This document shows positions 522 to 35,795 of a stretch of DNA of 64,000 nt, in pieces. This DNA is from Geothrix sp. (GTDB taxonomy: Bacteria; Acidobacteriota; Holophagae; Holophagales; Holophagaceae). Position numbers and translations under genes: made by a program. Position 1 is the stretch's first letter, and every line of letters begins with the position of its first letter. The notes beneath the pieces were generated by a model. The model saw only the letters and a program-made list of their open reading frames with translations, ran no database searches and was not told the DNA's origin. The stretch lies in contig NZ_CP126625.1 of NCBI RefSeq assembly GCF_030219325.1, forward strand, positions 3,522,857-3,586,856, read 5' to 3'.

Positions 522-1394
522 ATGAAGACGCTACGCAAAGCCGTCATTCCCGTCGCGGGCCTGGGCACCCGCTTCCTGCCCGCGACCAAGGCCCAACCCA
601 AGGAAATGCTGCCTTTGGTGGACACGCCCGTCATCCAGTACGTCGTGGAAGAGGCCATCCGGGCCGGGGTTGAGAGCCTGGTGCTGGTCACTGGGCGAGG
701 CAAGGCCGCCATCGAGAACCATTTCGACGTCGCCTTCGAACTGGAGGACACCTTGCGCCGCCGCGGCAAGCAGGAGGAACTCGCGGTGGTACAGGGCATC
801 AGTCATCTCGCCCATTTCGCGTATGTGCGCCAGGGTGAGCCGCTGGGGCTCGGCCACGCCGTGCTTTGCGCCCGCTACGCGGTCGGTGATGAACCCTTCG
901 CCCTGCTTCTTGGCGATGACGTCTTCGACGAGCGGGATTCGGCCCTGGACGCCCTGATCGCCGCATACGGTTCATCCGGAAAGTCCGTCGTCGGCGTCCA
1001 GGAAGTGCCACCCGAACACGTTTCCCGGTACGGCATCGTCAACGCCCCCGGCAGCCAGCGAGATGTTTGGGATGTGACAACTATTGTCGAAAAGCCATCT
1101 CCCAAGGATGCTCCCAGCCGCTGGGCCGTCGTGGGCCGCTACGTGCTGGAGCCGCGCGTTTTCGATCACCTCGCGGCCCTGGAGCCAGGCGTGGGCGGGG
1201 AGTACCAGCTCACCGACGCGTTGGCGGCCCTCGCCCGGGAAGGCCGGCTGGTCGCCGCACCGATCCCCGCCAAGCGCTATGACACCGGCAACAAGCTCGA
1301 CTACCTGAAGGCCAACGTGGAGTTCGCCCTCAAGCGGGAAGATCTTCGCGAGGACTTCACCACCTACCTGAAAGAGCTGTCCTGCGGCCTCTAG
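522..1394 (+). CDS. galU: UTP-glucose-1-phosphate uridylyltransferase
   Basis: A 290-residue cytoplasmic enzyme that makes UDP-glucose from UTP and glucose-1-phosphate, feeding surface polysaccharide and glycolipid synthesis. The N-terminal nucleotide-binding signature [20 protein letters not shown] is at about residues 9-28, followed by the [16 protein letters not shown] block typical of GalU. The central LGDDVF segment and a late TGNKLDY motif also match the family. Length is normal for bacterial GalU. The ATG at 522 has a close purine-rich GGAGAGG upstream. It is divergent from the rRNA leader and its end overlaps copA (opposite strand) by four bases. Confidence 0.93.
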
Positions 1395-3496
1395 CGCCGC
1401 AGCCTCAGCGCGTTCAGCACCACCGTCAGCGAACTGAGGCCCATGGCCGCGCCAGCCAGCATGGGCCCGCCGAAGCGCTCGAGCTGTCCGAAGGCCGCCA
1501 GGGGCACCAGCAGCAGGTTGTAGCCAAGCGCCCAACCGAGGTTCTGCTTGATCACGCGCTGCGTACGCAGGGCGAGGCGCCTGGCCGTCAGAACCGGTTC
1601 CAGTCCGGCCCGCAGCAGCACCAGCGGTGCCGCCGCCATCGCCGCCCCGGTGCCCTGCCCGCCCGCGCCCGAACCCATGGCGATCCCGCAATCCGCCTGG
1701 GCCAGCGCCGGGGCATCGTTGACGCCGTCGCCCACGAAGCCGACCACCGCCCCACTCGCTTGCATCCCCCTGAGGTGGGACAGCTTCCCCTCAGGCCGGA
1801 CCTCAGCGGTCACGCGCGTGATCCCCGCGGCCCTGGCCATGAGCCCAGCGGGCCCACTCCGGTCACCCGTCAGGAGGTGGAGCTTCAGCCCCTGGCGCTC
1901 CAGGTCCGCCACCACGCTGGGTGCCTCTGCCCGCAATCGGTCGCCCAGAATGAAGACCCCCTGGAGCCCCGCCTCGTTTGCCAACCCCACCGCGATCCCA
2001 TCCGGATCCACGGCCGGGAAGGGCGTCCCCAGGAAGGACTCACTGCCGAGGCGCCAGGACGCACCATCCAAGGTCCCCGATATCCCCCCTCCGGGGTGCG
2101 CCCTGAAACCTTGGACGACTTGCAGGTCACCGGCAAAGGCGGCACGAAGCCCCCGGGCGATCGGGTGCTCCGAATCGCGTTCCAGGTTGGCCGCCACTCG
2201 GAGGAGCTCGGATTCAGGCTGATCACCGGAAGCCAGCACCCGCCTAAGCGTCGGCTGCCCCTCCGTCAGGGTGCCCGTCTTGTCGAACACCAGGTCCGTG
2301 GCCCGGCCCAGCGCCTCCAGGGCCGCGGCGTCACGCACCAGCACACCCCTTTTCGCCGCCGCGCCGATGCCGACGGTCACCGCCACCGGCGTGGCCAGGC
2401 CCAGGGCGCAGGGGCAGGCGATCACCAGGAGGGTCACGGCCGGGCGCCAGGCCTGGGCGAATCCATCACCCCAGATCCACCAGCCCGCAAACGTCGCCAG
2501 GGCCAGGACCAGAATGGCCGGCACGAAGACGGCGCTGATGCGATCGGCGAGTTCCTGGGCCGGGGCCCTGGAGCCCTGGGCCTCGGCGACCATGGCCGCC
2601 ATGCGCGCCAGCTGGGTCGCCGCGCCAACCGCGCTGACCTCCATTTCCAGGGCCGATCCATGCACCACGGTTCCCGCCACCAGGGAATCCCCGGATCCCT
2701 TCGCCACGGGCAGGGGTTCCCCCGTGAGCATGGACTCGTCCACCTCGGCCTGCCCGGAGCTGACCCGCCCATCCGCAGGGACGGTCTGGCCCGGGAGCAC
2801 CCGCACCCTGTCTCCGGGGGCCAGCATCGCCACGGGAACCTCAAGCACGGATCCGTCCGCCTCCAGCCGGAGGGCCGTCGGCGGGGCCAGCGTGAGTAGT
2901 GCCTTGAGCGCGTCGGTGGCGCGGGTCTTCGCCCGGGCTTCGAGGTACTTCCCCGTCAGCAGGAAGGCCACCAAGGCGGCGGCCGTTTCGAAGCTGAGCT
3001 CGTGGACGCCCCGCTGCCATTCGACGACGGCGAAGGTCCAGGCGGTGCCGGAGCCGAGGGCGATGAGGGCATCCATGGAGACCTGCCCATGGAGGGCCTG
3101 GCGCACAGCCCGCTGGAAGAACCCGAGGCCGGCCCCGAACACGACCGGCGTGGCCAGGAGGGCCTGGATCCAGCCGGGCAGATGCCCGTGCCAGCCCGGC
3201 AGCATCGAGATCAGCAGGGGCGCGGTGAAGGCCAGCGCAAACACCATGCGATGGCGGGCCGGTTCCAGATCCTCGACCGGAGGCGCGTCCGGCTGGACCT
3301 TCGCCAGGCCATAGCCCGCATCCTCGACCCGAAGGGCCAGCGCCTCAAAAGTCGCCGCCCCTTCCACTCGCGCCGTTCCCGTGGCGAGATTCACCACGGC
3401 CGCGGTCACGCCCGGCGTATCCGCCAAGGCCCTCTCCACGTGCCGGACGCAGGAAGCACAGGTCATCCCCGAGACGGCAAAAGTCTGTTGATCCAC
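1391..3496 (-). CDS. copA: Copper-exporting P1B-type ATPase
   Basis: A 701-residue inner-membrane pump expected to expel Cu(I) from the cytoplasm at the cost of ATP. It has one N-terminal heavy-metal-associated domain (GMTCASC near residue 10), then transmembrane helices. The intramembrane metal site is [10 protein letters not shown], the phosphorylation site DKTGTLTEG, an SEHPIA ATP-binding motif, and the hinge [10 protein letters not shown]. The CPC motif supports a Cu(I)/Ag(I) class. It starts at GTG 3496 behind a G-rich ribosome site; the nearby ATG is out of frame. It is the last gene of a MerR regulator-CopZ-CopA operon. Confidence 0.93.
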
Positions 3497-3763: not shown

Positions 3764-4246
3764 TCAGGCCCTGTGTTCGGCGAACGAGGGCAGCCGGGCC
3801 GCCTCGAGCAGCAGGGTTTCCATCAGGTTGCACCCCAGTTCGCTGCTCTGGCCGTCCGGCGTACCGAGGGTGATCCGCAGGATGTCCACCAGGAGCCTGA
3901 TCTCCGTCAGCTTGACCTCCAGGGCCTGGAGTTTCCCTCCCAGTGCCTCACGGACGTGGGCGCAGGGGGCGCTGTCCTGGCGGAGGGCCCGCAACAGTTC
4001 CTGGACCTCCTCGAGGCTGAACCCGGCGGCCTGGGCGGCCCTGAGGATCCGGACCCAGTGGATGGCCTCCGCCGGAAAGAGCCGGTAGCCCTTTGGCGAG
4101 CGGGGCAGGTCGCCGAACACACCGGCATCCGCATAGAACCGGAGATTGCGGGCCGTGATGCCCGAACGCGAGGCCAGCTGGCCGATCTTCAGCATCCGGT
4201 TCGAGGAACCAGCTTGAGCAGCGTGGGTGTCTGACGCGATCGCCAT
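3764..4246 (-). CDS. MerR-family metal-responsive regulator (CueR-like)
   Basis: A 160-residue regulator. The N-terminal winged helix (LKIGQLASRSGITARNLRFY) and the LPRSPKGYRLF segment define a MerR-family DNA-binding domain, followed by the dimerisation helix. Two cysteines, in CAHVREALGGKL and near ELGCNLMET, could take part in metal binding, but the spacing is not a clear CueR CxnC loop, so metal specificity comes from the operon context. The ATG at 4246 has GGGAGGT four bases upstream. It is first in the operon with copZ and copA and sits behind a promoter with the long spacer used by MerR proteins. Confidence 0.88.
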   Translation of the reverse strand: MAIASDTHAAQAGSSNRMLKIGQLASRSGITARNLRFYADAGVFGDLPRSPKGYRLFPAEAIHWVRILRAAQAAGFSLEEVQELLRALRQDSAPCAHVREALGGKLQALEVKLTEIRLLVDILRITLGTPDGQSSELGCNLMETLLLEAARLPSFAEHRA

Positions 4247-4274
4247 GGGGACCTCCCGTGAAGCGGACTCCCCA

Positions 4275-4305
4275 AGGGTAAGGTTCCAGTTACATGGAGG
4301 CTCAA
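4275..4305 (-). promoter_or_regulatory. MerR-type promoter/operator of the copper operon
   Basis: On the minus strand TTGAGC (4305-4300) and TACCCT (4280-4275) are separated by exactly 19 bases. This is the overlong spacer that MerR-family activators correct by DNA distortion. The spacer carries an imperfect dyad, GCCTCCA-N6-TGGAACC. The start codon of the regulator is 28 bases downstream. The arrangement implies autoregulated control of the regulator, copZ and copA from one promoter. Confidence 0.75.
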
Positions 4306-4325
4306 GGATAAAAATCACACTTCAA

Positions 4326-30210: not shown

Positions 30211-31401
30211 ATGTCCTTCCTCATCGCGCTCGTCATCATCCTCCTGGTCCAGTGGCTGCATTTGCGGCTGCTGCGCCTGGAGATGCCCAGGCGCACCCTG
30301 CCCTGGCTGCCCTGGATCCTGGTGGCCCTGCATCTCCCCCTGATCCTCTTCGCGGTGATGCGCGCCGTAGGCGTCAGCGGGCCCGGCACCCTGCCCCTGC
30401 TGCGCTCCCTGGCCCGGATGGGGTTCTACTTCCAGGCCTTCACCGTCCTGCATCTGATCATCAGCATGGTGGCCGACATGGGCTGGCGGCTCAGCCGCCT
30501 CGGCCGGCCCCAGAACCCGGAGGTCGAGGAGGACACGCCGGAGGACGCTGGGCGCCGGGCCTTCCTGCGCACGGCCGCCCTGACCAGCACCGGAGCCGCC
30601 CTCGCCGTGGGCGTGGCCGGCGCCCGGCAGGCCTACGGGGATCCGGAGATCACGCGGAAGACGCTGGCCTTCCCCGACCTCCCTCCGGGTTTGGAGGGAC
30701 TCAGGATCGCCCACCTGAGCGACCTCCATGCGGGCCCCCTCGTGAGCCTGGGGACGCTGCGCCGCTGGCGGGACCTCACCGAGCGGGAAGGGCCGGAGCT
30801 CCTGCTCTTCACGGGGGATCTCGTGGACAGCCGACCGGAGGAACTGGCGCCGCTACTCGAGGCCTTCGAGGGCTTCCGGCCGCCCCTGGGCCGCTTCGCA
30901 GTGCTGGGCAACCATGACTTCTTCGATGATCCCCGCCCCATCCGGCGGGACCTGGAAGCCGCTGGCATCCGCTGCCTGGAAAACAGGGCGGCCCTGGTCC
31001 AGCGGGGCGGCTCGACCCTGGCCCTGCTGGGTCTGCAGGATCCCATGGCGCGGAACGGACGCTTCCGCCGCCTGGTCTTCGGTCCGGGCCCCCGGCCCGC
31101 CGAGGCGGCGCGGGACCTGCCCGCGGAAGCCTTCCGCATCTGCATGAACCACCGGCCCAGCGAATGGGAGCAGGCCCTGGCCGCCGGGGCGCGGCTCACC
31201 CTCTCCGGCCATACCCACGGTGGCCAGATCAATCCCATCCCGGGCTGGAGCAGCGCAAACCTCATCGGCCCCCGCACCGCCGGCCTCTACCGTGAAGGGG
31301 AGGATCTGCTCTACGTCAGCCGCGGCCTCGGCGTGGTGGGCCTGCCCATCCGCATCGCCGCCGCACCGGAGATCGCAATCTTCACGCTGAAGCGGGGCTA
31401 G
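30211..31401 (+). CDS. Membrane-anchored metallophosphoesterase
   Basis: A 396-residue protein of the calcineurin-like phosphoesterase family with YaeI-like features. The N-terminal 120 residues hold three or four hydrophobic helices plus a Tat-like RRAFLRTAALTSTG segment. The catalytic motifs are complete: LSDLHAG, FTGDLVDS, GNHDFF, NHRP and SGHTHGGQ. The domain is expected to bind two metal ions and face the periplasm. YaeI-type enzymes act on UDP-sugar lipids or phospholipid intermediates, but this substrate is unassigned. It follows the protease gene by 18 bases on the same strand. Its 3' end overlaps the opposite-strand anti-sigma gene. Confidence 0.85.
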   Translation: MSFLIALVIILLVQWLHLRLLRLEMPRRTLPWLPWILVALHLPLILFAVMRAVGVSGPGTLPLLRSLARMGFYFQAFTVLHLIISMVADMGWRLSRLGRPQNPEVEEDTPEDAGRRAFLRTAALTSTGAALAVGVAGARQAYGDPEITRKTLAFPDLPPGLEGLRIAHLSDLHAGPLVSLGTLRRWRDLTEREGPELLLFTGDLVDSRPEELAPLLEAFEGFRPPLGRFAVLGNHDFFDDPRPIRRDLEAAGIRCLENRAALVQRGGSTLALLGLQDPMARNGRFRRLVFGPGPRPAEAARDLPAEAFRICMNHRPSEWEQALAAGARLTLSGHTHGGQINPIPGWSSANLIGPRTAGLYREGEDLLYVSRGLGVVGLPIRIAAAPEIAIFTLKRG

Positions 31402-31646
31402 GGCTTCCGGAGCGTCGCCTGGACCCGGGCCAGGGCCTCGGCGGCCACCTCCGGGGCTGTCGGTGGCGGCGCCAGCGAGGCCTTGGCGAAGCCAGGCAGG
31501 GCTTCCAGGCCCCGCAGGAACCCGGCGCAGACCCGGCACAGCAGCAGGTGGATCCAGATGCCGATCCGGCGCGACAGCGGCAAGGAGCCTTCGGCGTACT
31601 CCGTGAGTTCGGTCTGGACGTCGTGGCAGGTGGGCAGGAGCTTCAT
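31398..31646 (-). CDS. Small zinc-binding anti-sigma factor
   Basis: An 82-residue cytoplasmic protein with no transmembrane segment. The N-terminal part carries the ZAS-type zinc motif IHLLLCRVC (H-x3-C-x2-C) after an earlier TCHD. Proteins of this form sequester ECF sigma factors and often release them on thiol or metal stress. The ATG at 31646 overlaps the sigma stop (ATGA), so expression is coupled to the sigma factor. It is the last gene of the buf-type operon. The longer in-frame reading upstream is out of context and was dropped. Confidence 0.8.
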   Translation of the reverse strand: MKLLPTCHDVQTELTEYAEGSLPLSRRIGIWIHLLLCRVCAGFLRGLEALPGFAKASLAPPPTAPEVAAEALARVQATLRKP

Positions 31647-32260
31647 GGGCGGCCTCCCAGGACGTGGGCACGGAGCCGGGCCTGCAGCAGCACCCGGGAA
31701 CGGTGGAGGCGCTGGCGGACCGTGCCGGGGGTCAGCTGGAGGTGCCGGGCGATGTCGTCCGTCTCCCAGTCCTCCAGGTCCTTCAGCACGAACACGATCC
31801 GGTGCGAGTCCGGCAGCTCGTCCAGGGCCCGGGTCAGGCACTCGCGCATCTCCTGCCGCTCCACCAGCGCGTGGGCCTGGGCCTCCACCTGCCACTCCGG
31901 CAGGCGCTCGGTCTCGGTGTGGTGGCCCCGCTCGTCAAAGGGGCCCAGGGCCAGCGGCTCCGGGCGCTCCATGTCGTGGATGCGCACCCGGCTCCGGCGC
32001 ACCATCAGCGCCGCGTTCAGGCAGACCTTGTAGCCCCAGCTGCTGAACCGGCTGCGTCCTTCGAACTTCGGCAGGTCGCGGTGGATGCTCATGAGGGCGT
32101 CCTGGAGCGCATCCTGGGTGTCGGCCGTGTTGCCCAGGATGCGGCGGATCCCGTTGTGGAAGAGGGACAGGTGGGGCGTGACGAGCGCGCCGAAGGCATC
32201 CGAGTCGCCCGCGGCGGCCCGCTCGATCAGTTCCGATTCCGTGTGGGGAGCTTCCGACAT
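31643..32260 (-). CDS. ECF RNA polymerase sigma factor
   Basis: A 205-residue sigma-70 family factor with region 2 (ALQDALMSIHRDLPKFEGRS, then RFSSWGYKVCLNAALMVRR) and region 4 (EDWETDDIARHLQLTPGTVR) linked directly, as in ECF factors. It is paired with the downstream zinc anti-sigma gene through a four-base overlap. It follows the YceI gene by 41 bases, which include a short CCGCTG/CAGCGG hairpin next to the ATG. The likely target is the bufferin operon itself, but I could not identify its promoter elements. Confidence 0.9.
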   Translation of the reverse strand: MSEAPHTESELIERAAAGDSDAFGALVTPHLSLFHNGIRRILGNTADTQDALQDALMSIHRDLPKFEGRSRFSSWGYKVCLNAALMVRRSRVRIHDMERPEPLALGPFDERGHHTETERLPEWQVEAQAHALVERQEMRECLTRALDELPDSHRIVFVLKDLEDWETDDIARHLQLTPGTVRQRLHRSRVLLQARLRAHVLGGRP

Positions 32261-32301
32261 GCCGCTGCCAGTGTCAGCGGGGCCATCGCCTCCGGCAAGC
32301 G

Positions 32302-32919
32302 CTACTTCTTGCTGGCGGGGGCCTTCTTCGCTGCGGGCGCCTTGGCCGGTGGCGCCTCGAAGAAGCCCACCAGCAGGAGGTCCAGCTCCACCTGGCGCTT
32401 CAGGCTGATCTTGGCGGCCACGCTGTCGGCGCCCACGCCGTAGTCGAGTCGGTCCAGGGGCAGGGTGGCCCGGTAGGACCAGGTGCGGACATCGGCGCCA
32501 TTCATCCCCTCCGCGGCCAGGAAGGGGAGCTCCAGGTCCCGGGTCACGCCGTGCATGGCGAGGGTGCCCCGCACGAGCACGCGGTCACCGTCCCGGCGCA
32601 CCTCCTTCGAGGTGAAGGTGATCTTGGGGTACTTGGCCGCATCGAAGAAGTCGTCGCTCCGCAAGTGCTCGTCGCGCTTGCCGTTGGCGGTGTTGATGGA
32701 GCGGGCGTCGATGTCGAGGCGGATGCTGGCGCCTTCCAGGGTGGCGGGGTCGCCCTGGATGTCGGCCTTGAAGCGCGTGAAGCGGCCCGGCACGTCGAAG
32801 AGCAGGGTCGAGGCCTTGAAGCCGAGCACCGTGTGGTTGTCGTCCACGCGGAAGACCCGGGTCTGGGCCAAGAGGGGAGCCGCCAGCAGCAGGGCCGGCA
32901 GGAGGAAGCGGAAGCGCAT
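32302..32919 (-). CDS. YceI-family periplasmic lipid-binding-like protein
   Basis: A 205-residue exported protein: signal peptide MRFRFLLPALLLAAPLLAQ, then the YceI/lipocalin-like barrel with VDDNHTVLGFKASTL, RSDDFFDAAKYPKITFTSKE and a GTLAMHGVTRDLELP strand. YceI proteins bind isoprenoid quinones or similar lipids. The Ala/Lys-rich tail PPAKAPAAKKAPASKK is unusual. GAGG lies eight bases before the ATG. It stands 25 bases after the DUF2063 gene and just before the ECF sigma factor, so it is probably part of the peptide operon. Confidence 0.85.
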   Translation of the reverse strand: MRFRFLLPALLLAAPLLAQTRVFRVDDNHTVLGFKASTLLFDVPGRFTRFKADIQGDPATLEGASIRLDIDARSINTANGKRDEHLRSDDFFDAAKYPKITFTSKEVRRDGDRVLVRGTLAMHGVTRDLELPFLAAEGMNGADVRTWSYRATLPLDRLDYGVGADSVAAKISLKRQVELDLLLVGFFEAPPAKAPAAKKAPASKK

Positions 32920-32944
32920 GGGGACCTCGGGATCAGGGTTGTTT

Positions 32945-33727
32945 TCAGAGGGGGGTTTGGAAGCCCGCGATGGCGCCATCGCGGCGGAGATCCCGGAGCA
33001 GAGCCAGGACGGGTTCGAGTTCTGGAATGCCCAGGGCGGCGGCGGCCTCAGCCAGGGGCCGGGTCCGGGCCCGCACCAGCAGGGCGGCGGTGGCGGGCGT
33101 CAGCTCCATGAGCCGGGTCTCGCCTTCCGCATTCCGGAAGGCGATGAGGCTCGTGGGCTTCGCCTCGGGGATGGGCGCGGCCTCCGTGGTGCGGTGGACG
33201 GCATGACCATAGGACACGATCTGGGTGGCCGCATCCAGGACGATGACATCCTCCGGCGCGGGCTCTGCGTGGATGCTGCCGGGGGGATCCGAGTCGGGGT
33301 ACCGGGCCACCAGCACTTCGAGAAGCTCGGCATGGGCCAGCTCCAGCAGGAAGGGCCAGCGCTCCTGGCCCCAGCCCGTGGCGGCCAGCCAGCCCAGGAA
33401 GGCCGGGGCGATGTCGCGGTAGTGGCCGCTCCGCACCGTCCGGGCATCCAGGAAGGCCTGCACGCAGGCGTCCCAGCGTTCGGCTGATTCCAGCAGCGCC
33501 TTCAGCACCGGGAACATGGTCTCCAGGGGCTCGAGCAGGCTCATGCGGACCAGCTCGCGGTAGGTGAGCAAGGCTTCGCCCTGCTCGCGGAAGGCGCGCT
33601 GGTCGTCGCCCGGAAGGTCGTGGCGGCGGGCGGCGCGGCCCGGATCCGCCTCGAGGGCGGCCTCGTCGGCATCCAGGACCAGGGTGGCCATGGCCCGCTG
33701 GAGGCGGAGGGTGCGGGACTCAGGCAT
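32945..33727 (-). CDS. DUF2063 partner protein of the MNIO enzyme (BufC/HvfC-like)
   Basis: A 260-residue cytoplasmic protein matching the DUF2063 family, annotated as putative DNA-binding but known as the partner of DUF692 enzymes (BufC, HvfC). Seen: the N-terminal helical RLQRAMATLVLDADEA, LLTYRELVRMSLLEPLETMF, and the middle block GHYRDIAPAFLGWLA. Partners of this type hold the peptide near the MNIO active site. It overlaps the DUF692 gene by eight bases, so the two are translationally coupled. Assignment rests on family and position. Confidence 0.85.
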   Translation of the reverse strand: MPESRTLRLQRAMATLVLDADEAALEADPGRAARRHDLPGDDQRAFREQGEALLTYRELVRMSLLEPLETMFPVLKALLESAERWDACVQAFLDARTVRSGHYRDIAPAFLGWLAATGWGQERWPFLLELAHAELLEVLVARYPDSDPPGSIHAEPAPEDVIVLDAATQIVSYGHAVHRTTEAAPIPEAKPTSLIAFRNAEGETRLMELTPATAALLVRARTRPLAEAAAALGIPELEPVLALLRDLRRDGAIAGFQTPL

Positions 33728-34571
33728 GGCGGGCCCCCATGGTCATCAGGGCCGCGTCATAGGCCCGCTGGAGCCGCGAGCGCTCTGCCAGCAGAAGCTC
33801 GAGGTCGGGGATGTGGTTGTCCCGCTCGAGCAGCACGGGGACGGGACGCCCGAGCCGGGCCAGGGTCCACTGCATGAGCTCGATCACCGGGTCGATGACC
33901 TCCGCCCCGTGGGTATCCACGGTGAGTTCGCCGAACTTCTTGTGCCCGGCGATGTGGATCTGGGCGACGCGATCCAGGGGCATGCGCGCCAGCCAGGCCT
34001 TCGGATCGAAACCGAAGTTGAGCGCGTTGACGTAGACGTTGTTGACGTCCAGCAGCCACCCCGTGTCCGCGCCCTCGAGCACGGCGGTGACGAAGTCGGC
34101 CTCGTCCATCTCCGCGGCACCCAGCTCGGCGTAGTAGGTGATGTTCTCCAGCAGCAGTGGAACGGGCAGGCGGGCCTGCAGATCCCGGGCCCGGGCCACC
34201 GTGTGTCGCACCGACTCCCGCGTGAAGGGCAGGGGCAGCAGCTCGTGGAGGCAGGTGGCGTCGACGCTGGTGAAGCAGAGGTGCTCGGAGTGCCAGGGGG
34301 TGCCGGTGCGCACCAGGAAGTCGCCCAGGTCGCGCAGGTAGACCTCGTCCCACACATCGAAGCCGCCCACGGACATGCTGAGTCCGTGGGTGAGCACGGG
34401 GTCGCGGTCGAGGATGGCGCAGGCCAGCCGGTGGTGCCGTCCTCCATCCCCCACGACATTCTCAGGGCAGGTCTCCCAGAAGGGCACGCCGTGGGCCTCC
34501 ATCCGCGCCACCGCTTCGAGGTGGGGGCGGCGGAGCCCGAGCCCCACGCCGGTGAACCTGTCCTGAGCCAT
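33720..34571 (-). CDS. bufB: DUF692 (MNIO) peptide-modifying enzyme, BufB-like
   Basis: A 283-residue TIM-barrel enzyme of the multinuclear non-heme iron oxidase family (DUF692). Relatives MbnB, TglH and the bufferin BufB modify cysteines of peptide precursors, including forming thiooxazoles. Seen: GVGLGLRRPHLEA, SEHLCFTSVDA, LLLENITYYAEL, LLDVNNVYVNAL and QIHIAGHKKFGEL, which supply the conserved His, Glu, Asn and Asp ligands. GGGAGG sits five bases before the ATG. It follows the Cys-rich precursor by 16 bases and overlaps the DUF2063 partner. Confidence 0.9.
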   Translation of the reverse strand: MAQDRFTGVGLGLRRPHLEAVARMEAHGVPFWETCPENVVGDGGRHHRLACAILDRDPVLTHGLSMSVGGFDVWDEVYLRDLGDFLVRTGTPWHSEHLCFTSVDATCLHELLPLPFTRESVRHTVARARDLQARLPVPLLLENITYYAELGAAEMDEADFVTAVLEGADTGWLLDVNNVYVNALNFGFDPKAWLARMPLDRVAQIHIAGHKKFGELTVDTHGAEVIDPVIELMQWTLARLGRPVPVLLERDNHIPDLELLLAERSRLQRAYDAALMTMGARHA

Positions 34572-34587
34572 GCCGGCCTCCCGTCCG

Positions 34588-34935
34588 CTACTTCTTTTCC
34601 TTGCCGCAGGAACCTTCCTTCTTGTCCTTGCCGCAGGAGCCGTCCTTGGCCTTCTTGTCCTTGCCGCAGGAGCCATCCTTCGCCTTCTTCTCCTTCTTGT
34701 CCTTGCTGCCGCAGGAGCCCTTGCCGCAGGAACCATCCTTGGCCTTGCCGTCCTTCGCCTTGTCGGTGGCCTTGCCCGCCTCCTTGGCGTCCTTGGCGCC
34801 ACATTCGCCCGCCTGCGTGAGGGCGGCTTCGGCCCCGAAGGCCTCCACGGGCGTGGCGCCCACGGTCGCGGACCCGCCGGCCATGAGCGAGCCGGCGGTG
34901 AAGAGGGTGGCGGCACCGATCAACTTCGTGAACAT
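34588..34935 (-). CDS. bufA: Bufferin-like Cys-rich precursor peptide (DUF2282-like)
   Basis: A 115-residue precursor. It has an N-terminal export signal (MFTKLIGAATLFTAGSLMAG) and a Lys-rich tail with six cysteines at 45, 70, 75, 90, 101 and 110. Three are in identical DGSCGK units (67-72, 87-92, 98-103), one in KGSCGS and one in EGSCGK; the first is in GECGAK. Family members carry EGKCG-type motifs that a DUF692 enzyme turns into thiooxazoles that bind Cu(I). It is first of six genes on the minus strand, with a strong GGAGG five bases upstream of the ATG. Confidence 0.85.
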   Translation of the reverse strand: MFTKLIGAATLFTAGSLMAGGSATVGATPVEAFGAEAALTQAGECGAKDAKEAGKATDKAKDGKAKDGSCGKGSCGSKDKKEKKAKDGSCGKDKKAKDGSCGKDKKEGSCGKEKK

Positions 34936-34964
34936 GAATCCTCCGTGCGGACAGGGCCGCATCG

Positions 34965-34983
34965 GGGGCCGCACGGCGGCCCC
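34965..34983 (-). promoter_or_regulatory. Leader hairpin and promoter region of the bufferin operon
   Basis: A perfect 8-base hairpin, GGGGCCGC-ACG-GCGGCCCC, lies 30 bases upstream of the bufA start and 20 bases before its GGAGG (34944-34940). The whole region from 34936 to 35090 holds no gene and includes AT-rich runs. A small GACCC-TGC-GGGTC dyad lies at 35058-35070. A sigma-specific promoter could not be fixed. The hairpin could act as an mRNA stabiliser or as a control element. Confidence 0.5.
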
Positions 34984-35090
34984 GTTGTGGAACAGGACTG
35001 GGTCTTTCCGGACACACCCGATCAGGACCGAAGTGCTGTTGTTAACCTTTTCGGTGCGACCCTGCGGGTCATTGTGACATTTTTTTATTT

Positions 35091-35492
35091 CTATGCCTCG
35101 AAGCGCGGGTCGGAGGGGCCCGGCCGCCAGGCGCAGGCAGTGATCCTCTGTCGCCGCCGGGCCACCCAGTCATAGGCCCCATCCCGCAGGCCCCCCGGAA
35201 GCCAGGCCAGCAGCATCCCGGCCAGACGCCAGCCCGGACCCATCCGGCCCAGGAGGTGGATCAGCGCCCCGGACCGGGACCAGAGCGCCCCGTCCGGCGT
35301 GCGGACCAGGAGGCTGTCCGGGAGGCCGCTGAGCACTGATCCGGGGATCAGGCGGTGGAAAGCCTCGCCGCCCAGGGGCGCGAAGCGGACCCGCCCGGAG
35401 CGATCCCGCCCGGCCACGAAGCGCACCGCCCGCTGGCAGAGACCACAGCCGCCGTCGTAGAAGAGGTGGGTCAGCCCTTGATCAGAACCCAC
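35091..35492 (-). CDS. DCC-family thiol-disulfide-like protein (DUF393)
   Basis: A 133-residue protein of the DUF393/DCC family. The motif LFYDGGCGLCQRAVRFV near the start has the D-x2-C-x2-C signature, followed by FAPLGGEAFHRL and LIHLLGRMGPGWRLAGML. The family is predicted to have a thioredoxin-like fold; its targets are unknown. I start at GTG 35492, which overlaps the upstream UPF0016 stop; the CTG at 35474 is an alternative. No strong ribosome site. It could lie upstream of the bufferin operon in one message, but 155 bases separate them. Confidence 0.72.
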   Translation of the reverse strand: MGSDQGLTHLFYDGGCGLCQRAVRFVAGRDRSGRVRFAPLGGEAFHRLIPGSVLSGLPDSLLVRTPDGALWSRSGALIHLLGRMGPGWRLAGMLLAWLPGGLRDGAYDWVARRRQRITACAWRPGPSDPRFEA

Positions 35493-35740
35493 AATCCCAC
35501 CGCGATGAAGGCGGTCCCTGCCGCCCACTTGATGGCCGCCTCCGGGATGTACTTGAAGAGGATGCCGCCCACGGCCACGCCGATGGCCGTGGCGCACACC
35601 AGGGCTGCGCTGGCGGCCAGGAACACGGTCCAGACCTGCCCGCTGCGCACGGTGGCCGTCATGGCCGCGAGCTGGGTCTTGTCCCCCACCTCGGCGAGGA
35701 AGACGGTGGCGAAGGTGGTCCAGAAGAGTGATCGGTTCAT
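35471..35740 (-). CDS. Half-size UPF0016 (GDT1/MneA-type) cation transporter
   Basis: An 89-residue membrane protein with three hydrophobic helices and one copy of the family motif EVGDKTQ (residues near 16-22). UPF0016 proteins, such as GDT1 and MneA, move Mn2+ or Ca2+ and usually have two such repeats in about 190 residues. A single-repeat protein would need to dimerise, and no partner copy is nearby. It starts at ATG 35740. It overlaps the DCC gene downstream and lies 55 bases from the divergent RNase D-like gene. Confidence 0.82.
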   Translation of the reverse strand: MNRSLFWTTFATVFLAEVGDKTQLAAMTATVRSGQVWTVFLAASAALVCATAIGVAVGGILFKYIPEAAIKWAAGTAFIAVGLWVLIKG

Positions 35741-35795
35741 GTGTCCCCGCAGATCGTGACAGGGGTTCATGGTACCGGACTGGCATACTGGCCGG

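Follow-up and report, generated by a model that had tools for sequence, protein, structure and literature searches.

The 64,000-nucleotide stretch of Geothrix sp. contig NZ_CP126625.1 analysed here (the window) carries a six-gene operon that encodes, on the minus strand and in 5′ to 3′ order, a secreted cysteine-rich precursor peptide (A), an MNIO enzyme (B), its DUF2063 partner (C), a YceI protein (D), an extracytoplasmic function (ECF) sigma factor (E) and a zinc-binding anti-sigma (ZAS) factor (F). By its enzymes the operon is of the captophorin (bufferin/oxazolin/fontiphorin) type, which yields ribosomally synthesized and post-translationally modified peptides (RiPPs), with the activities of B and C predicted from sequence. 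The genes are tightly packed, with gaps of 16 nt between A and B, 25 nt between C and D and 41 nt between D and E, and overlaps of 8 nt between B and C and 4 nt between E and F. These coordinates and junction lengths bear out the first-pass annotation of the window, which had described six genes on one strand joined by overlaps or short gaps. It had placed the unit at 31398 to 34983; the genes do run from 31398 onward, but the best precursor start is the ATG at 34935 rather than a position near 34983, and the transcription unit should take in the predicted promoter at about 35053-35079, which that annotation had overlooked. The features are as follows.

35053..35079, minus strand: predicted ECF-type promoter, TGTCACA-N15-GCACC, with an A-tract before it (strict spacing across homologous upstream regions)
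34936..34986, minus strand: leader with two GC-rich hairpins (15-locus alignment)
34588..34935, minus strand: A, secreted precursor peptide, 115 amino acids (found by sequence in family genomes)
33720..34571, minus strand: B, MNIO (DUF692) peptide-modifying enzyme (PF05114, E=9.6e-86)
32945..33727, minus strand: C, DUF2063/HvfC-type partner, PME1 (PF09836, E=1e-12)
32302..32919, minus strand: D, exported YceI lipocalin-like protein (PF04264, E=2e-35)
31643..32260, minus strand: E, ECF sigma factor (Sigma70_r2 and r4_2)
31398..31646, minus strand: F, soluble ZAS anti-sigma factor, 82 amino acids (C7-X25-H33-X3-C37-X2-C40)

Each of the six cysteines of precursor A precedes a glycine; five lie in GSCG and one in GECG. 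All of the motifs previously listed for it are present, namely three DGSCGK units, KGSCGS, EGSCGK and GECG, and the peptide likely bears a Sec-like signal with cleavage near VGA/TP. A search against the DUF2282 and BufA models had been proposed as a check; no Pfam or NCBIfam model matched A at E values up to 0.1, including DUF2282, BufA and HvfA. We therefore rejected membership of these families, and the operon lacks the DUF2282 precursor that marks Buf1. The EGKCG repeat that marks oxazolins and fontiphorins is also absent from A, which by sequence nevertheless looks most like the EGKCG group with Ser in place of Lys. Among 43 distinct Holophagaceae precursors, Cys is followed by Gly in 222 of 239 cases, and GSCG is the commonest context (119), alongside GGCG, ASCG, HKCG, GTCG and GKCG. 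The substitution of Ser for Lys pointed out in the first-pass annotation is thus true of this precursor but belongs to a continuum, with GKCG and HKCG in close relatives. Because relatives vary at this position, Ser before Cys is a lineage preference and no strict rule. A literature search on the GSCG and DGSCG motifs returned unrelated matches. The fontiphorin enzyme pair FonBC accepts Ala, Arg or Thr before Cys and fully processes DGKCG, with a preference for small residues following Cys (PMC13097082); by analogy with this tolerance, modification of DGSCG is plausible. The GSCG type widens the precursor repertoire.

Enzyme B gives an alignment with 3BWW (E=2e-48); those with TglH and MbnB are weaker. 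Its His, Asp, Glu and Asn residues at metal-site positions are invariant in 16 homologues, and from general knowledge of MNIO structures we take these residues to be the metal ligands. Partner C matches NGO1945_C (E=1e-9) and the HvfC model (E=2e-29) in addition to DUF2063, and its structure model matches 3DEE (E=2e-7) and the TglHI chain 8hi7_A (E=2e-5), a predicted fold in agreement with NGO1945 and TglI. The MNIO gene stands beside the DUF2063 partner gene, and the Cys-rich precursor gene adjoins both, the arrangement by which captophorins are recognised. The earlier label of a bufferin-type operon therefore suits the enzymes, through PF05114, DUF2063, HvfC and the fold matches, but not the precursor.

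The downstream pair would supply the regulation. In E, Pfam finds no domains besides sigma regions 2 and 4, and the region 4.2 sequence GTVRQRLHRSR of E is common to relatives. The C7-X25-H33-X3-C37-X2-C40 motif of F fits the ZAS consensus C/H-X23-26-H-X3-C-X2-C, and none of its four residues varies among 15 homologues. Because fold searches with F gave weak matches, the best being RslA (3HUG, E=0.8), the ZAS assignment rests on the motif and its conservation. The proposal of an H-x3-C-x2-C anti-sigma factor lacking a membrane helix agrees with the complete motif, with a maximum 19-residue hydropathy of 1.48 and with a confident soluble four-helix model. By comparison with RsrA and HrsE, F may plausibly sense thiols or metal.

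The closest relatives by precursor lie in Geothrix and other Holophagaceae (Acidobacteriota). Sequence searches recovered the precursor from 38 of the 77 family genomes and the MNIO gene from 49 of 93 class genomes, so the operon is no accident of one genome. Within Holophagaceae loci A, B and C co-occur wherever the contig permits reading, and E and F are paired in 19 related loci besides the window, with neither found alone beside A-B-C. Seven Geothrix loci (L089, L091-L094, L096 and L098) hold A-B-C alone. The YceI gene reported within the operon is indeed there, and its distribution makes it an optional passenger: it is absent where E-F are present in L097, L103 and L106, and present where E-F are absent in L099-L101. 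The operon at L084 lacks D-E-F, and the same genome has a separate YceI-sigma-anti-sigma set (L149, about 1779-3368; identities of 60%, 52% and 43%, respectively), so D-E-F behaves as a module. This conservation, the ZAS residues, the order of the genes and a promoter present in single copy all support the original suggestion that the RiPP operon has a sigma/anti-sigma pair of its own.

Other precursors were seen beside related MNIO genes. Arg-rich repeat precursors (CGRRCA or CGGRRCAGVPR) lie just upstream of related MNIO-DUF2063 genes in L108, L114 and L123 and represent another type of Cys repeat, and many tandem ASCKGEK units form the precursor upstream of the MNIO gene in L200. In L111 and L120, inspection by eye shows a radical-SAM/SPASM-like protein with a C-rich C-terminus (e.g. 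GQCGRCELKANCGGCRVHA) whose end coincides with the MNIO start; these loci may belong to another RiPP pathway.

Upstream of the precursor gene stands (T/C)GTCACA-N15-GCACC, with an invariant A three bases beyond and an A-rich tract before, which we claim from its sequence to be an ECF-type promoter. The half-sites are nearly invariant, and the spacer sequence is not conserved. Of 43 related upstream regions, 41 contain the fitted pattern (Markov shuffles: mean 0.013, maximum 1); as visual inspection of those very regions had first revealed the element, the shuffle figure measures strength and is not a pre-set test. A strict genus-wide scan, which covers mostly the same loci, found 28 sites, spread over 26 of the 47 same-genus genomes; 26 of the sites are at the precursor. 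Of the other two, one is a second copy in G041 (L247, G041:C235:5416-5445), which diverges from the precursor promoter and precedes a HAD-type hydrolase gene, and one is in G032, upstream of a probably secreted protein. A relaxed pattern has four matches in the source genome: the precursor promoter, two mutually identical sites that look like 16S rRNA, and a weak one. On this basis we rejected a wider regulon. Since each genome has roughly one copy of the element, the switch appears dedicated to the operon, and E probably reads the element here, though we do not claim it as the only reader. We rejected the first base of the -35 box, T or C, as a marker of a cis-encoded sigma factor, as it is confounded by phylogeny.

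The leader hairpins immediately ahead of the precursor's Shine-Dalgarno sequence (34936-34986, minus strand) pair GGGGCCGC with GCGGCCCC and GCGG with CCGC. Two pairs of the first show one compensatory change each in 1 of 15 loci, weak support, and the second is invariant in the aligned rows. An Rfam search of the leader found no family and a riboswitch reading was dropped; the hairpins could affect translation or mRNA stability.

We judge it reasonably likely that this is a captophorin-type RiPP operon controlled by an ECF sigma/ZAS switch of its own, and that it works in the following manner. In unstressed cells, zinc-loaded F would hold E. Thiol-reactive stress of the oxidant or disulfide kind, or from a soft metal (Cu, Cd, Au or Hg, for example), would remove the zinc or oxidise C7/H33/C37/C40 and thereby free E, which would transcribe from TGTCACA-N15-GCACC and amplify the whole operon, E and F included. 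C would then present A to B, and B would oxidise the cysteine in every GSCG unit, with 5-thiooxazoles the most likely product. After Sec export, the peptide would bind a soft metal, Cu(I) or one like it, in the periplasm, where YceI may be an optional helper. MNIO chemistry requires O2, and induction on contact with oxygen or oxidised metal would reconcile this need with an anaerobic lifestyle.

Several observations weigh against this model. Geothrix fermentans is described in the literature as strictly anaerobic, which sits uneasily with the O2 need of B. B and C lie under the NCBIfam equivalog cut-offs of HvfB (263.6 against 360 bits), BufB (247.5 against 310) and HvfC (103 against 142) and thus form a divergent branch, and F is also below cut-off (antisigmaE, E=4e-9, 36.1 bits against 50; ChrR, E=5e-5). 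The FonBC variants reported in the available portion of PMC13097082 do not include Ser ahead of Cys. A second ECF-ZAS pair, about 50% identical to E, is present in most family genomes, and the region 4.2 helix of this paralogous ECF, with VRQR(L/V)HRAR, is nearly that of E. Furthermore, the element is kept without a cis-encoded sigma factor in L112 and L116-L119 as well as in the seven A-B-C loci named above (L089, L091-L094, L096 and L098). For this reason we rejected co-presence of promoter and sigma gene as proof of direct control. Since operons that have lost their sigma gene still keep the element, it must be usable by a related sigma factor.

Of the alternatives, the one that survives best, though we regard it as unlikely, is that the operon responds to oxidants or oxygen and not to metal overload, with F an RsrA/HrsE-like disulfide sensor, the peptide a thiol scavenger or redox buffer, and Cu incidental. 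The O2 need of B means that product would form only with oxygen present. Moreover, RpoE2-HrsE, among related circuits the best studied, responds to hypochlorite and controls an hvf-type operon (PMC7907618), and RsrA is one example of a ZAS protein that senses disulfide stress (PMC4960319). However, characterised MNIO-PME1 products generally bind Cu (PMC13097082), and the Caulobacter sigma-F operons are induced by Cr and Cd but not by peroxide or diamide (PMC3511200), with an anti-sigma factor of a different type. Somewhat more doubtful is the idea that E does not regulate its own operon, with the widespread ECF paralogue or another factor reading TGTCACA-N15-GCACC and E-F acting on other targets. 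The loci that keep the element without E-F and the near-identical region 4.2 helices speak for such an arrangement, whereas the strict single-site occurrence and the position of E and F inside the transcribed unit favour autoregulation, and the element is missing upstream of the paralogue itself. It is improbable that the precursor cysteines are modified otherwise (to oxazolone-thioamide or another MNIO product) or stay as free thiols that bind metal as metallothioneins do, for although GSCG is unlike EGKCG, the MNIO superfamily has several chemistries and the precursor falls outside all models, the dedicated MNIO and PME1 genes are conserved and the Cys-Gly dyad, preferred by FonBC, predominates in the family.

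If the captophorin-type operon does run under its own switch, it may, as a tentative extension, be a one-operon stress device in which a redox/metal ZAS switch and a single promoter govern the operon's own metallopeptide. The metal preference or chemistry of GSCG cysteines may then differ from that of EGKCG, and in Acidobacteriota ECF-ZAS pairs would be coupled to both GSCG and Cys-Lys precursors. Captophorin and bufferin operons are widespread, most work has been done on Pseudomonadota, and their activation is poorly known. Here sensor, sigma factor, promoter, precursor and enzymes make up one compact set, which allows inducer, promoter and product to be studied jointly.

Two open reading frames directly upstream of the operon, on the minus strand (35091-35750 and 35471-35770), encode a thiol-disulfide oxidoreductase domain of DCC1-like type and a cation antiporter, GDT1, and a DCC-like sequence is found upstream in several relatives too. 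The first-pass annotation also drew attention to a copper-export operon 30 kb away. The minus strand does encode a P-type metal ATPase that carries an HMA domain (1391-3496), along with a MerR regulator (3764-4318), about 30 kb off; proximity is their sole tie to the operon, and they do not count as evidence on its function. In favour of the proposed model, Geothrix came to dominate a copper-mine enrichment on Cu(II) medium (PMC10946571).

Beyond Holophagaceae, we sampled Acidobacteriota loci chosen with DUF2063. Other families of the phylum have Cys-Lys precursors (CKGKNxCKG type) with MNIO and DUF2063, and in L204, L205, L209 and L213 genes for an ECF sigma factor and a ZAS anti-sigma factor follow MNIO-DUF2063 in the same order as in Geothrix, with TGT(A/T)AC-type boxes upstream. 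The Geothrix operon shows sigma/ZAS linkage with precursors other than DUF2282. In L212, a DoxX-like gene occupies the position of YceI in Geothrix.

Among known systems, the captophorins fontiphorin, oxazolin (HvfABC) and gonophorin share with this operon a secreted xGxCG Cys-rich precursor, an MNIO and a DUF2063 partner, whereas here GSCG and GECG replace EGKCG, DoxX is absent, YceI, ECF and ZAS genes are added and the host belongs to the Acidobacteriota (PMC13097082). The same source describes MNIO-PME1 operons studied to date as installing 5-thiooxazoles and generally binding Cu; the mass loss it gives is about 4 Da for each modified site, 8 Da for two. The bufferin operons Buf1 and Buf2 have the same enzyme pair, and according to the published survey sigma and NrsF genes accompany Buf1 (DUF2282) and not Buf2 (PMC12452194); here the precursor is not DUF2282 and a soluble ZAS takes the place of NrsF. 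An ECF-ZAS pair inside such an operon appears undescribed in the literature searched, supplements aside. The Caulobacter SigF-CC3252 system is alike in ECF control of MNIO-type operons, in metal stress and in a -35 GTAACC close to TGTCAC/TGTAAC, and differs in its anti-sigma factor (conserved Cys 131 and 181) and in its -10 CGAA (PMC3511200). The ECF41 promoter TGTCACA-N16-CGTC has an identical -35 and a different -10, and E lacks the ECF41 C-terminal extension, Pfam finding sigma domains only (PMC3426412). The direct functional precedent is RpoE2 of H. influenzae, which is held by the small cytoplasmic ZAS protein HrsE and controls an MNIO-DUF2063 operon in trans (PMC7907618). There the pair is encoded elsewhere and serves a wider regulon (msrAB and others), whereas in Geothrix it lies within the operon and apparently serves a single promoter.

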